From Sulfurimonas hongkongensis (GTDB lineage: Bacteria > Campylobacterota > Campylobacteria > Campylobacterales > Sulfurimonadaceae), in the NCBI RefSeq assembly GCF_000445475.1, contig NZ_AUPZ01000010.1, forward strand, positions 62,001 through 126,000: DNA of 64,000 nt, in the 5' to 3' direction. A model generated the notes under the pieces. It did no database searches, had not been told where the DNA came from, and saw only the letters and a program-made list of their open reading frames with translations. The position numbers and the translations under genes were made by a program. Positions 32,274 through 38,430 of this stretch are shown piece after piece. How positions within the stretch are numbered: position 1 is the first letter of the stretch; each line of letters opens with the position of its first letter.

Positions 32274-32457
32274 GAGTGCTCTGAGCAATTATTAAGGTAG
32301 ATCCTGAATCAAGTTCAGGATGACGGTTTGTTTGTTCAAGATGACGGTTTGTTTGTTCAAGATGACGGTTTGTTTGTTCAGGATGACGCGCGTCCCGTCA
32401 TTCCGTGCTTGACACGGAATCTAGTTTATAAATTAATCAGAGGGTTCAATTTAAAAA
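32274..32457. repeat. Full copy of a 180-bp dispersed repeat with internal 21-bp tandem units
   Basis: Starts GAGTGCTCTGAGCAATTATT and ends AATCAGAGGGTTCAATTT. It contains the hairpin GATCCTGAATCAAGTTCAGG (CCTGAA/TTCAGG) and three tandem 21-bp units of GATGACGGTTTGTTTGTTCA type. A second hairpin is CCGTGCTTGACACGG. The 45904-46066 copy is inverted. Confidence 0.85.
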
Positions 32458-32466
32458 GTAGTAAAT

Positions 32467-33348
32467 ATGTTAAGTATTGATTTAAAATCAAAGAGTTCAT
32501 TTGAGATTCTTGAGGTTTTTGAGTCTCTTTCTCTCAGGCCTAGAGAGATTCTTGAAGTAGAGATTTTAGAGAGTGACTTGGACTCTTTTGGCTTTAAATC
32601 TTTTGTGGATTTGGCTCAGATATTTCTTTTAAAGATGCTCCTTGCTTTGCAAAAAGATGAGAAAAGTATCGTTTTGAGATTTTCTAAACTCGATGAGAGT
32701 AGTTCTTTTCATAAGTCACAAAGTAGCAGTGAAAAGTATGGCGTTGGTAGTGAGTTTTTTAGTATTGACAAAACAAAGCAGTTTAGTTTTTTATATCACT
32801 ATAAAAAAGCTTTAGAGTTTGTTGGCATAGAGAGTAAAAAACGGGTTTTAAATCTTGGCATAAACCGTGGCGATGAGTTTAGAGTTATAGAGCAACTCCT
32901 AAGAGAAGAGCAGTTTAATGAGAAGAGTTTTGTTGGAGTTGACTACTGTGCATCTGTCATAGAGTACGCAAAAAAAGAGTTAGGTGCTCCAAATGTTGAG
33001 TTTATTTGCCACGATATAAACGCTCTTGATGGGCTAAACTTAGCTAAGTTTGACTTGCTTATCTCTATAGGAACCTTGCAAAGTTCTAACATAAGATTTA
33101 ACGCTTCGTTTATGCACATCTATCAAAACTTTATTGAAGATGGCGGTGCGATAGTGCTTGGTTTTCCAAATTCTAGATGGTGTGATGGCGAGATGATTTA
33201 TGGTGCAAAAGCACCAAACTACAGCTTTAGTGAGATGAGTCTAGTTTTAAAAGATATACACTTTTGTAAAAAGTATCTCCAACAAAAAAAGTATAGAGTT
33301 GTCATCACTGGCAAAGACTATCTCTTTTTAAGTGCGAGGAAGATTTAG
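32467..33348 (+). CDS. Class I SAM-dependent methyltransferase
   Basis: 293 residues. A 100-residue N-terminal extension has no recognised fold. A Rossmann methyltransferase domain (about 115-290) follows, with motif I RVLNLGINRGDEF, motif II VGVDYCASVIEYAKK and acidic VEFICHDINAL. Motif I is unusual (NLGINRG for DLGCGxG). The gene is convergent with the asparagine-synthetase-like gene, overlapping it by 4 bases. No Shine-Dalgarno is evident. Function unknown; small-molecule or surface-glycan methylation is possible. Confidence 0.7.
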   Translation: MLSIDLKSKSSFEILEVFESLSLRPREILEVEILESDLDSFGFKSFVDLAQIFLLKMLLALQKDEKSIVLRFSKLDESSSFHKSQSSSEKYGVGSEFFSIDKTKQFSFLYHYKKALEFVGIESKKRVLNLGINRGDEFRVIEQLLREEQFNEKSFVGVDYCASVIEYAKKELGAPNVEFICHDINALDGLNLAKFDLLISIGTLQSSNIRFNASFMHIYQNFIEDGGAIVLGFPNSRWCDGEMIYGAKAPNYSFSEMSLVLKDIHFCKKYLQQKKYRVVITGKDYLFLSARKI

Positions 33349-34994
33349 AGTAACCACTTTTTAATCCAAACACTAAGAACATAGAGTCCCCAAATATGCT
33401 GTTTAAAGCCGCTCTTTGTGGCACTCTCTATATACTCATCTAACTCTTTAGTTTTAAACATCCCTGTTTGAGCGTTGATCTCTTTTATAAGAGAGATTTT
33501 TTTAGAGTTTATGAGATATTCTAGGAAAGGATTTGAGAAGCCTTTTTTCTTTCTTTTTAAAATTTTCTCATTTAAGTATGGCTTCATAATCTCTTTTAAA
33601 AGCCCTTTTGTAACTCCATCTTCATATCGAAGTTTAGGGCTGATGTTAAAGGCTAAAGAGGCTAAGTTGTTGTCTAAAAATGGAGTTCTTGTTTTTATAG
33701 AGTGTGCCGAACTTACACGGCCTAGTTTTGCTAAAAAATGCTCGGCTTGGAAGTGTTTTAGGTCGATGAAACTATACCAAAGGCTCTCATCCTTGTGAGT
33801 GGATGCGATGAACCTATCTCTATGTTTGCAGAGATATTTTAGGGCGTAGTTATCTTTTATGTTTTGTTTTAAAAGTGCATTTTTTTGCAAATCTGTAAAA
33901 GATTCGCCTGAAGTGCGAAAGAGTAGGGTGTCATCAAAGACTCTTTTATAGTGCTCCCACTCTCTATTTTTAGAGTAGTTTGAGCGAAAATATCTCTTTA
34001 GCCAGTTTTTGTTTTTAAGATTGTTTAGTTGCTCTATGTCTAAAAACTCAAAATATTGTCTATACCCCAAAAAAAGCTCATCACTTCCCTCTCCGCTCAA
34101 AACTACACTATGTCCATCTCGCTTGATTTTCTCAAAAAGTAAGTAAAGAGGAATAGACGCAGGGTCATTTAAAGGCTCATCTAGGGCATCTAAAACTATC
34201 TCACTCGCATCTATAAACTCACTTTGAGATATCTCTAAAGCGATGTTGTTTAAGCCTAAAAGCTTAGCGCTCTCTCTTGCTGCTTCTCTCTCATCATACT
34301 TAGCAAACTCTTTGTAGCCTACTGTATAGGTCTCTAAATTAACGCCTCTTTGTTTTGTAAAAGCACAAATTGTCGCACTATCTATGCCTCCAGAGAGAAG
34401 AGAAGCCGTTGCACTATTTAGCCTTGCATCTATAGATTTTCTTAGAGTTTTCTCTAGCTTATATATCGCTTCGTCTCTATCTGTGATGATGCTAGACTCT
34501 GCATCTAAGAGATTGAAGTACTCCTTTGTCTCATACTTGTCTCCATCAAAGATTAGATACTCAGATGAGCCAAGTTTATAGATGCCATCAAAAAAAGTAT
34601 AAGGAGATGTTGGTGCTAAAAATGAAAGATAAGAGAGCAGGGCATCTTTGTTCATACTAACTCTCCCAAGATATGGAGTGAGTTGTTTTAGAGTAGATGC
34701 AAAGATAAGAGTTTTATCTTTTTGCATAAAAAAGAGAGATTTGAGACCAAATCTATCACGAAAAAGAAATAGCTTTTTTTTATCATAGATGGCAATCCTA
34801 AAGCTACCATCTAGATACTTTACAAAGTTAACTCCCCACTTTTTATATGAAGCCATTATAAGCTCTTCATCACTTAGAGAATCTACAAAGCCTAGCATCT
34901 CTCTTAGCTCTTTTTGCTTGTAAAGTTCCCCATCAAAGATAACTTTTAACCTCTTTACATCTAGTCCTTTTGAAATCGCTAAAAAATCAGACAC
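33345..34994 (-). CDS. Asparagine-synthetase-like protein with truncated glutaminase domain
   Basis: 549 residues starting with GTG at 34994, overlapping the TAG stop of the methyltransferase gene by one base. AsnB normally begins Met-Cys-Gly-Ile, where Cys is the amide-transfer nucleophile. Here the protein enters the Ntn domain only at the FDGELYKQKELREML strand (normally near residue 75), then LDGSFRIAIYDKKKLFLFRD continues. The synthetase core is intact: LLSGGIDSATICAF (PP-loop 201-206), LSGEGSDELFLGY and RTPFLDNNLASLAFN. It should therefore use ammonia or another amine, or be a repurposed amide-forming ligase. The nearest described relatives lacking the Cys are beta-lactam synthetases and lasso cyclases. 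Confidence 0.8.
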   Translation of the reverse strand: MSDFLAISKGLDVKRLKVIFDGELYKQKELREMLGFVDSLSDEELIMASYKKWGVNFVKYLDGSFRIAIYDKKKLFLFRDRFGLKSLFFMQKDKTLIFASTLKQLTPYLGRVSMNKDALLSYLSFLAPTSPYTFFDGIYKLGSSEYLIFDGDKYETKEYFNLLDAESSIITDRDEAIYKLEKTLRKSIDARLNSATASLLSGGIDSATICAFTKQRGVNLETYTVGYKEFAKYDEREAARESAKLLGLNNIALEISQSEFIDASEIVLDALDEPLNDPASIPLYLLFEKIKRDGHSVVLSGEGSDELFLGYRQYFEFLDIEQLNNLKNKNWLKRYFRSNYSKNREWEHYKRVFDDTLLFRTSGESFTDLQKNALLKQNIKDNYALKYLCKHRDRFIASTHKDESLWYSFIDLKHFQAEHFLAKLGRVSSAHSIKTRTPFLDNNLASLAFNISPKLRYEDGVTKGLLKEIMKPYLNEKILKRKKKGFSNPFLEYLINSKKISLIKEINAQTGMFKTKELDEYIESATKSGFKQHIWGLYVLSVWIKKWLL

Positions 34995-35575
34995 TACTTA
35001 AAAAACCCCACAGTTATATCATTTTTCATATAATTTTTTTTAAATTTAACCTCTCTAACCCCAATTTCTGATGCCATAATTTTTATATCACCAAGCGTTA
35101 GGTAGTTGTAAGTTTGGCTCTTTTTTGATCCATATAGTATGTTAAAGATAAAGCCTATCTCACTTGAAGCGTAGCAATTTTGGATAAAAAGATGCGTTTC
35201 AAAAAGCTCTAATGTGTTCATAGCTCCACTACAAATATAGTATGAGGCACTTGGTAGTGAATCTTTACAGATATCAGCTAAAATCGCTTTCGTTTGTGTT
35301 CGCTCTTTTGTAATTTTAACCATCTCTTTGATGGAGTCTATGGCAATGTACTTTTTTGGAAGTCTACCCTCTTTTTTTGCATATAGATAAAAATCTCCAA
35401 AGCCACAGCCCGCATCAGCTAAAGAAAACCCATCAAGATTTGAAGGAAGTAGTTCTAGGATGATTTTAAATCTTAGGTTTTGAGAGTCGCTTGAGTTCCA
35501 GTTTACGCCCTTTGCGCTTACTCCATGAAGTTCTATAGCAGAGGTGTAAAACCTTTCATTGTCGATACGAGGCAT
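34994..35575 (-). CDS. Small SAM-dependent methyltransferase
   Basis: 193 residues. Motif I is LADAGCGFGDFYLYAKK and motif II is KKYIAIDSIKEMVKITKE. ICSGAMNTLELFET and a short C-terminal half follow. Translationally coupled to the asparagine-synthetase-like gene (1-base overlap), with four bases separating it from the small upstream gene. The three form an operon on the minus strand. Together with the 32467 methyltransferase they suggest a modification pathway, but the substrate is unknown. Confidence 0.75.
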   Translation of the reverse strand: MPRIDNERFYTSAIELHGVSAKGVNWNSSDSQNLRFKIILELLPSNLDGFSLADAGCGFGDFYLYAKKEGRLPKKYIAIDSIKEMVKITKERTQTKAILADICKDSLPSASYYICSGAMNTLELFETHLFIQNCYASSEIGFIFNILYGSKKSQTYNYLTLGDIKIMASEIGVREVKFKKNYMKNDITVGFFK

Positions 35576-35579
35576 ATTT

Positions 35580-35948
35580 TTATAGATGTCTTAGCATACA
35601 AGGAACATCAGAGCTATCTCTTAACTCTTCATACTCGTCCATCTCTGTGTGCATAGTATCTGTAAATGTTTCCATAGAGTTTTTTAGATGTGCTTGTGCT
35701 TCTTCAACTAACTTTTTTTGAGTAGATTCAATCTCACTAAAATGTTTAAGGGTTTTTTGATAATATTCTTTATTGTCAGTAAGAAGAATGATGTCCTCTT
35801 TTTTAACCCACTTTCTAAGAGGTTTGCCATCTTTTTGAAACTCAAAGATAACATTGTCGCTATTTTTTGAGGCAATAAATTTTCTTACAGGAAAACCAAT
35901 AAAAGTAGATAAGGGTGTTGCGTGTTGTTTTTTGATTACATAATACAT
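35580..35948 (-). CDS. Hypothetical protein with C-terminal coiled coil
   Basis: 122 residues. The N-terminal part (MYYVIKKQHATPLSTFIGFP, then WVKKEDIILLTDN) looks like a small beta domain. A charged helical segment follows (about 70-105, EIESTQKKLVEEAQAHLKN). No family recognised and no signal peptide. First gene of the minus-strand operon with the methyltransferase and AsnB-like genes. Weak upstream signals: TATATA lies 8 bases before the ATG. Confidence 0.6.
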   Translation of the reverse strand: MYYVIKKQHATPLSTFIGFPVRKFIASKNSDNVIFEFQKDGKPLRKWVKKEDIILLTDNKEYYQKTLKHFSEIESTQKKLVEEAQAHLKNSMETFTDTMHTEMDEYEELRDSSDVPCMLRHL

Positions 35949-37209: not shown

Positions 37210-38430
37210 TCAATCTACTTTTTGGGGAATAAGCTCCGGAATTATCTGCGAAGCAAAGAACGAATTTACTTTCAATCGAAGTGGTGCTTTACTATGTTCA
37301 CTTTCTAGATAGCCCATTTTCGTTAGAGTGCTTACGAGTTTTGTTGCGGTACTTATACTTTTGCCTATGGCCAAAGGCACATACTTTCTTTCTAGTTCAC
37401 CATTTAACAATAGATGAGAAAACAGTAGTTCAGAATATTTAGGGAGAGGTTCTCTTTTATGAAACATCCCCTCTTGCGAAAATCTTACAAATTTTCTGAT
37501 TTTTTCATTGAGCTGATCAAGTCGCAAACTATATCCCATAAATTCAATTTGGTCCAATGATATCTCAAGCATATATTTCAAATAGCCCTCAAGCCCTCTA
37601 AGTGATAATTCACCTCTACCATCAGTTGCACCTTGTTGCTTCATATCTGCATAAGACAGGTGTGTTTGGTATTCTTTAACATCCCTTGCTAGTCCTCTTG
37701 ATATATTCCACAGCCCGTAACCTTCAAGCTTCATATTCCAGAACATTGCATCAAGATGCAGTCTTGAAACCCTTCCGTTTCCGTCTAAGAAAGGGTGAAG
37801 ATACACTAAGCGATGATGAGAACTAAGTGCAGCAAGTAGTTTTATTGCTTTTGTGGAGCTAGTATATGCTGAGCTATACTCTTTTTCATAATAGTTAAAA
37901 ACTGTATCTATTACATCATAAGCAGGTGCGATATGATTTGCTACTTTAACATCTCTGTTTCTGAACTCACCGGGTATCATCTCTATGAGTTCATTTTCTT
38001 TTTCTAGTTTTGTAAATTTTTCCATGCCTTCACTAGAGTAAAACAGTCGATGAATCTCTTTTATAAAGTTTCTATCAATTACACTATGCTCTATAGAGTA
38101 GCCTTCAACAAACTCTTGTGTTTTGATATGTGCAACTGAAAGTTCTTGCAGTGCCTTTTCTTTTGAATCATCTGAGAATTGTTTCAGCATAGCTTTTTCA
38201 ATATCTATAGGGTGTGTACTTTGAGCTTCGATTCTGTTTGAATAGTAGCTGTTTGTAATCCGCAAAACATCCCTAAAAGCATTTACAACATATTGGTTAT
38301 ATCCACTTGCAATCTTTGCACTTTCTATACAAACTTTTTCTGCAAGCTCTAATAATTCTGGCTTTATCTGTCCTTTTAAATTATAAGGCATAATTGGAGA
38401 TATTAACATTTTATCCATCCTTGATGTCAT
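37210..38430 (-). CDS. Fic-domain protein (AMP-transferase type) with inhibitory helix and winged-helix C-terminus
   Basis: 406 residues. The Fic motif is HPFLDGNGR (His212 to Arg220), complete for AMP transfer to target hydroxyls. Upstream, SYYSNRIEAQ (Glu68) fits the inhibitory [S/T]xxxE[G/N]-like motif that blocks ATP binding in cis, with Ala in place of Gly. DUF4172-like N-terminal helices and a C-terminal helical/winged-helix part (about 310-406) match common regulatory Fic proteins. It belongs to the island and may be a stand-alone toxin-like or regulatory adenylyltransferase. The target is unknown. Confidence 0.85.
   Translation of the reverse strand: MTSRMDKMLISPIMPYNLKGQIKPELLELAEKVCIESAKIASGYNQYVVNAFRDVLRITNSYYSNRIEAQSTHPIDIEKAMLKQFSDDSKEKALQELSVAHIKTQEFVEGYSIEHSVIDRNFIKEIHRLFYSSEGMEKFTKLEKENELIEMIPGEFRNRDVKVANHIAPAYDVIDTVFNYYEKEYSSAYTSSTKAIKLLAALSSHHRLVYLHPFLDGNGRVSRLHLDAMFWNMKLEGYGLWNISRGLARDVKEYQTHLSYADMKQQGATDGRGELSLRGLEGYLKYMLEISLDQIEFMGYSLRLDQLNEKIRKFVRFSQEGMFHKREPLPKYSELLFSHLLLNGELERKYVPLAIGKSISTATKLVSTLTKMGYLESEHSKAPLRLKVNSFFASQIIPELIPQKVD

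Follow-up and report, generated by a model that had tools for sequence, protein, structure and literature searches.

We analyzed a 64,000-nucleotide stretch of the Sulfurimonas hongkongensis genome (contig NZ_AUPZ01000010.1, positions 62,001 to 126,000; hereafter the window), focusing on a gene for a protein that resembles the asparagine synthetase AsnB (33345..34994, minus strand; 549 amino acids, GTG start). Upstream on the same strand are genes for a 122-amino-acid protein with no assigned function (35580..35948) and for a 193-amino-acid class I methyltransferase dependent on S-adenosylmethionine (SAM) (34994..35575; hereafter MT). A second methyltransferase, MT2 (Methyltransf_31; 32467..33348, plus strand), is convergent and overlaps the 3' end of the AsnB-like gene by four bases. 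These genes are real and lie where an earlier, sequence-only reading had placed them. The overlap it reported between the GTG and the preceding stop is also there: the TAG of MT and the GTG share one base in TAGTG (34992..34996, minus strand).

The two halves of the AsnB-like protein have fared very differently. The synthetase half (residues 196-549; 33348..34409, minus strand) is intact, as had been claimed: the Pfam Asn_synthase domain is complete (residues 180-544, 1.2e-64), the sequence motif SGGIDS matches the PP-loop SGGxDS, an ATP pyrophosphatase signature (residues 201-206; 34377..34394, minus strand), SGEGSDE and the C-terminal KKKGF lysines are present, and every synthetase residue checked is kept. 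Of the N-terminal nucleophile (Ntn) glutaminase domain there is a remnant (residues 17-130; 34605..34946, minus strand), which reads FDGELY instead of FNGEIY. The Pfam GATase_7 match starts only at profile position 22, leaving the Cys outside, so the protein has no nucleophilic Cys, and alignment with homologues shows that Cys1, Arg30 and Arg49 are absent and that Asn74 is replaced by Asp. Neither the N-terminal Cys nor the complete Ntn glutaminase site of a glutamine-hydrolyzing enzyme is therefore found. Substitutions at otherwise invariant columns number 34 of 73 in the Ntn domain versus 9 of 148 in the synthetase half. Asn74 alone was rejected as a diagnostic of glutaminase loss because TsnB9 has Ser there; the position of E. 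coli Met120 (Ser64 here) was dropped as a tunnel marker because human ASNS has Val there. A structure prediction, proposed earlier as a check on the truncated domain, gave a predicted local distance difference test (pLDDT) score of 84 overall and of ~90 over most of the remnant, with residues 1-12 disordered. In this model the remnant is mostly folded and still held as an open scaffold.

The ancestral state of the gene can be read from its relatives. AsnB orthologues (~54-69% identity) occur in all but a few of 36 genomes from the same genus. The full-length ones are open frames of ~600 amino acids that start Met-Cys-[Ala/Gly/Ser]-[Ile/Val/Leu]-Phe-Gly and have complete HRGPD, FFAHQRLSI and FNGEIY motifs; their presence across most of the genus shows that the glutaminase was complete in the ancestral gene. 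Many of them have the junction TA-ATG-TGT, in which the MT stop overlaps the AsnB start and a Cys codon (TGT or TGC) follows. At the same junction the window gene has TA-GTG-TCT, with TAGTG homologous to the orthologues' TAATG and a Ser codon where they have Cys. A different species, Sulfurimonas sp. isolate STCSWMC_194 (JAQUFE010000002.1; locus L033), carries a truncated AsnB of 549 amino acids with 87% amino acid identity, and its start junction, length and gene order are identical. Since the start position looks ancestral, a Cys-to-Ser replacement followed by an internal in-frame deletion fits better than a new start inside the Ntn domain: the start codon is probably homologous (ATG to GTG), with Cys converted to Ser by one base change and ~50 codons deleted in frame just downstream. 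The residues after the start align ambiguously to MCAIFGI or LFFAHQRLSI, so the deletion edges are only approximate. The loss of the Cys was thus read correctly at the outset, but about 50 rather than the supposed 70 Ntn residues are missing in net.

The truncated gene is maintained by selection. For the window-L033 pair, the ratio of nonsynonymous to synonymous substitution rates (dN/dS) is 0.075 in the synthetase half (bootstrap 0.047-0.114), compared with 0.076 for gltX, and 0.42 in the Ntn remnant (bootstrap 0.21-0.89). Over the Ntn stretch, 16 intact-length pairs range from 0.04 to 0.12, including one pair with damaged glutamine-binding residues (L040-L041), and nine truncated pairs from 0.16 to 0.42. 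The low synthetase values together with the raised remnant values show that the enzyme is kept while the constraint on the glutaminase is relaxed. In a tree of the synthetase half, the window and L033 form a clade (100/100) that is the direct sister of the intact L004. The truncated AsnB genes show neither stops or frameshifts nor a dN/dS near 1, as pseudogenes would, and the junction shared with L033 and the synthetase dN/dS led us to reject a frameshifted or decaying gene in the window. Homologues with a full Ntn domain, which the sequence-only reading had regarded as a sign of frameshift, do exist at this locus, but there is no frameshift and the rest of the gene is under strong purifying selection, so its description of a functional AsnB homologue without the Cys holds.

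A comparable truncation is found outside Sulfurimonas. In a genus of another family of the same order (g9), 13 of the 31 sampled species have truncated AsnB, encoded by open frames of 531-536 amino acids that start MKK...FEGEIY and share 67-96% identity across the 13 species. Their congeners have AsnB open frames of 597-617 amino acids starting MCGI, and the similar upstream sequence in the two sets suggests that the genes occupy one and the same locus. We rejected a single origin for the window/L033 and g9 truncated groups (log-likelihood difference 499; approximately unbiased test, p-AU 7e-48); long outgroup branches were flagged in this test, and both truncated groups sit deep inside different genera. 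The truncation arose independently in Sulfurimonas and in g9.

We compared residues across 75 intact and 15 truncated AsnB proteins. Cys1 is present in 74 of the 75 intact proteins (one row is incomplete) and in none of the truncated ones, as is Arg49 (74/75 versus 0/15), and Arg30 is absent from all 15. Asn74 is invariant in the intact set and replaced by Asp (two) or Glu (13) in the truncated set. The interface Glu is likewise present in 75/75 intact proteins, and is changed in 12 of the 15 truncated ones (Lys in two, Gln in ten; the other three keep Glu); the window protein has Lys434 there (33693..33695, minus strand). The corresponding residue of human ASNS, Glu414, is described as absolutely conserved and as lying at the domain interface, no more than 5 Å from the glutamine pocket (PMC6748925). 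All 15 truncated proteins keep the PP-loop residues, Glu348, Asp351 and both C-terminal KKKGF lysines. Three further Sulfurimonas lineages, on separate tree branches, have damaged glutamine-binding residues. In one (L057:5845-7620), the Cys is replaced by Gly and a loop deletion takes in Arg49; in the other two (L040:5818-7620 with L041:4120-5922, and L028:1327-3120 with L029:1501-3294), the Cys is kept, Arg49 is replaced by Leu and Asp98 is changed. One genome, G026, has cleanly lost AsnB and keeps both MT and MT2, ~70 bases apart (L076, G026:C62, 1931-2001).

Compared with characterized enzymes, the protein shares the synthetase fold and ATP site of E. coli AsnB (1CT9) and human ASNS (6GQ3); its model matches 1ct9 with Z 27.8 and a root-mean-square deviation of 2.9 over 412 residues at 27% identity. 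It differs from both in lacking the N-terminal Cys, Arg30 and Arg49, in the Asn74-to-Asp change, and in having Phe420 and Lys423 for the aspartate-binding pair (human Asp400/Arg403), positions occupied by Phe, Tyr or Leu and by Lys in all intact homologues aligned. The full-length Sulfurimonas orthologues (for instance L004, 68% identity) have the same upstream MT and the same synthetase residues, but still begin with Met-Cys and have the Ntn glutaminase domain in full. The protein scores 292.1 bits against the NCBIfam model TIGR01536 (asparagine synthase, glutamine-hydrolyzing; cut-off 267.1), and a g9 truncated protein (L074:1551-3143) scores 268. Because both pass without a glutaminase, the label "glutamine-hydrolyzing" is misleading for such proteins. 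We note as a separate observation that the passing of TIGR01536 by these two glutaminase-less proteins (33345-34994 and L074:1551-3143) is a systematic annotation error. The genome from which the window comes also encodes another AsnB paralogue, which is full length and starts Met-Cys (L084:1001-2662, G000:C19).

Based on these comparisons, we consider it likely that the AsnB-like gene encodes a glutaminase-dead, ammonia-dependent form of the amidation carried out by its own orthologues. Replacement of the N-terminal nucleophile by Ser and deletion of ~50 Ntn residues, including the positions of Arg30 and Arg49, would have abolished glutamine hydrolysis, and the residual domain may have been kept as structural support for the synthetase half. 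That half would activate the carboxylate that full-length orthologues in the genus use, consuming ATP to form an acyl-adenylate (acyl-AMP) and pyrophosphate, and free ammonia would then attack the acyl-AMP in place of glutamine-derived ammonia. A type-B asparagine synthetase whose N-terminal Cys is blocked still forms the amide from NH4Cl (PMC10866355), and glutaminase-less NAD synthetases that use ammonia exist naturally as single-domain proteins (PMC3376133). These precedents make adenylation followed by ammonia attack the most likely mechanism, and the truncated AsnB enzymes of both genera most likely run on free ammonia. The type N (single-domain) NAD synthetase NadE is likewise an adenylating enzyme without a glutaminase that uses ammonia (PMC3376133), but it belongs to a different family, in which the glutaminase-less form is thought to be ancestral, whereas here it is derived.

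Several observations weigh against this reading. The stem leading to the window-L033 pair is long (0.31 versus 0.13 in the sister L004), which would also fit a change of substrate, and the synthetase-half dN/dS is higher in truncated pairs (0.08-0.16) than in most intact-length pairs (0.03-0.08). The accelerated stem also speaks for a rival reading, in which the truncated enzyme would be a ligase linking the activated carboxylate with an organic amine, within the same molecule or on a second substrate. Beta-lactam synthetase, carbapenam synthetase and the lasso cyclases combine the AsnB fold with a lost nucleophilic Cys, as here, and do such chemistry, and the change of the interface Glu to Lys or Gln could open a new amine route. 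The model matches the beta-lactam and carbapenam synthetases with Z 24-27 at an identity of 17-19%; these enzymes and the lasso cyclases use another catalytic acid/base, and a gene cluster like theirs is not found here. Beta-lactam synthetase has a Tyr-Glu catalytic dyad with the Tyr at the AsnB Glu348 position. The window protein has no such dyad, since Glu302, within SGEGSDE, takes the place of the Tyr as in asparagine synthetases. It scores 140.9 bits against the lasso-cyclase model NF033535, far under the cut-off of 525, and the four genes scanned, which are part of the neighborhood, include no lasso precursor peptide and no leader peptidase or recognition element (RRE). Moreover, the synthetase catalytic positions are unchanged, no new gene partner is common to the two truncated groups, and the close orthologues keep an active glutaminase site, suggesting that ammonia was the nucleophile of the ancestral enzyme. 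The analogy to these enzymes in the sequence-only reading is therefore not supported, and we regard an amine ligase as unlikely; the same low probability attaches to glutaminase-less AsnB having evolved twice in one order as enzymes that couple the activated carboxylate to a non-ammonia amine and make an undescribed product.

A further argument against reliance on free ammonia would be a separate glutaminase subunit supplying ammonia in trans. Some amidotransferases do have their glutaminase as a separate subunit (table in PMC3376133), and the full-length paralogue L084 could in theory donate. However, the operon holds no glutaminase gene, and with the interface Glu lost and part of the glutaminase-side interface deleted, a docking partner would presumably find no conserved site; we rate this explanation as more doubtful than an amine ligase. 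Slow decay, in which the glutaminase went first and the remainder is to follow, seems marginally less probable again. It would account for the raised dN/dS of the Ntn remnant, the damaged glutamine-binding residues of several lineages and the loss of the whole gene between the two methyltransferases of G026, but not for a synthetase dN/dS of 0.075, for 15 truncated genes without a single stop or frameshift, or for a truncation that persists across the 13 g9 species. Finally, an assembly or start-site artefact hiding a full-length gene has a negligible probability. Although the two Sulfurimonas genomes concerned are draft assemblies, the same junction occurs in two species of differing sequence, the bases upstream of it are the MT stop, and single-contig genomes are among the g9 carriers; L033 and g9 refute an assembly error in one genome.

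The acyl substrate of the enzyme need not be aspartate. No match over the cut-off of the asnS model for asparaginyl-tRNA synthetase (AsnRS) was found in 60 relatives (in a control, 7 of 14 known genomes pass), GatB is over cut-off in 39 of 41 genomes, and no AsnA was found in the own genome. With GatB and no AsnRS, these bacteria most likely form the asparagine needed for translation on the tRNA. We therefore rejected an AsnRS-linked need for asparagine as the role of AsnB, and consider asparagine supply for translation unlikely as the conserved role in the genus; asparagine is a possible product, not needed for translation here. Listeria AsnB, which also lacks the aspartate-binding Asp/Arg pair, amidates meso-diaminopimelic acid (mDAP) in peptidoglycan (PMC8554201). 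The feature by which that study marks mDAP-amidating AsnB, the missing Asp/Arg, is shared by the window protein, but the mDAP-amidating AsnB/LtsA of Gram-positives keep their glutaminase. In 13 other Sulfurimonas loci a gene of the sodium:dicarboxylate symporter family lies near or adjoins AsnB (for instance L047:7632-8840), a suggestive hint at amino-acid metabolism; it is absent beside the window gene.

The earlier proposal that the methyltransferases and the AsnB-like protein form a small amidation/methylation pathway did not hold up well. MT has the glycine-rich SAM motif (ADAGCGFGD) and a Rossmann methyltransferase fold in its model (pLDDT 95), and a structure search retrieved only generic class I methyltransferases, with ChlM and similar proteins as best matches. 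Conservation of the neighborhood, proposed as a check, is partial: MT adjoins AsnB in 26 of 38 loci and, in another family, lies near it in the genomes G039 and G058, but the small protein was found in 13 of the genomes searched, all within the genus, and MT2, although conserved in the genus, usually lies apart. Several genomes have AsnB without MT, G042 and G055 have MT without an AsnB match, and G026 keeps both methyltransferases without AsnB. The truncated AsnB of L074 has no MT beside it but a putative AEC-type transporter (named from its sequence). Given that MT and AsnB each occur alone and that MT has a generic fold, there is no support for a common methylation/amidation product, and the case for a joint pathway is weak. 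A biosynthetic gene cluster was rejected because no signature of one was found; the neighbors of the AsnB-like gene include gltX and PpiC-like, deaminase, ArsC-like, thioredoxin-reductase-like and Fic genes (some named from sequence), with a Fic/DOC family protein at 37210-38430 (minus strand). Beyond MT2, the intergenic region at 32300-32430 holds a palindromic repeat in which a 21-base unit (GTTCAAGATGACGGTTTGTTT) recurs in 3.6 tandem copies beside TGAATCAAGTTCAGGATGAC. The latter has 47 copies in the genome at up to two mismatches (none for a reversed-pattern control), some in arrays (C21:7680-7809), and is a dispersed element resembling repetitive extragenic palindromic (REP) sequences.

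In a table from a 2012 survey of ~700 genomes, AsnB is fused to its glutaminase in every case (100%) and never occurs without one (PMC3376133). The truncated genes of Sulfurimonas and g9 are two independent, conserved counter-examples, which current annotation still names "glutamine-hydrolyzing". We found no earlier description of natural glutaminase-less AsnB orthologues in an open-access subset of the literature; this is not proof, but orthologues that twice lost the glutaminase by truncation, with the synthetase kept under selection, look new. Because sister lineages preserve partly degraded stages, different routes of glutaminase loss can be set side by side: some lineages have altered the glutamine-binding Arg and Asp, another has lost the Cys, and two have deleted the first Ntn segment and also changed the interface Glu. 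Since the lack of AsnRS and the presence of GatB make asparagine supply for translation an unlikely role, the real substrate of these enzymes becomes a testable question.

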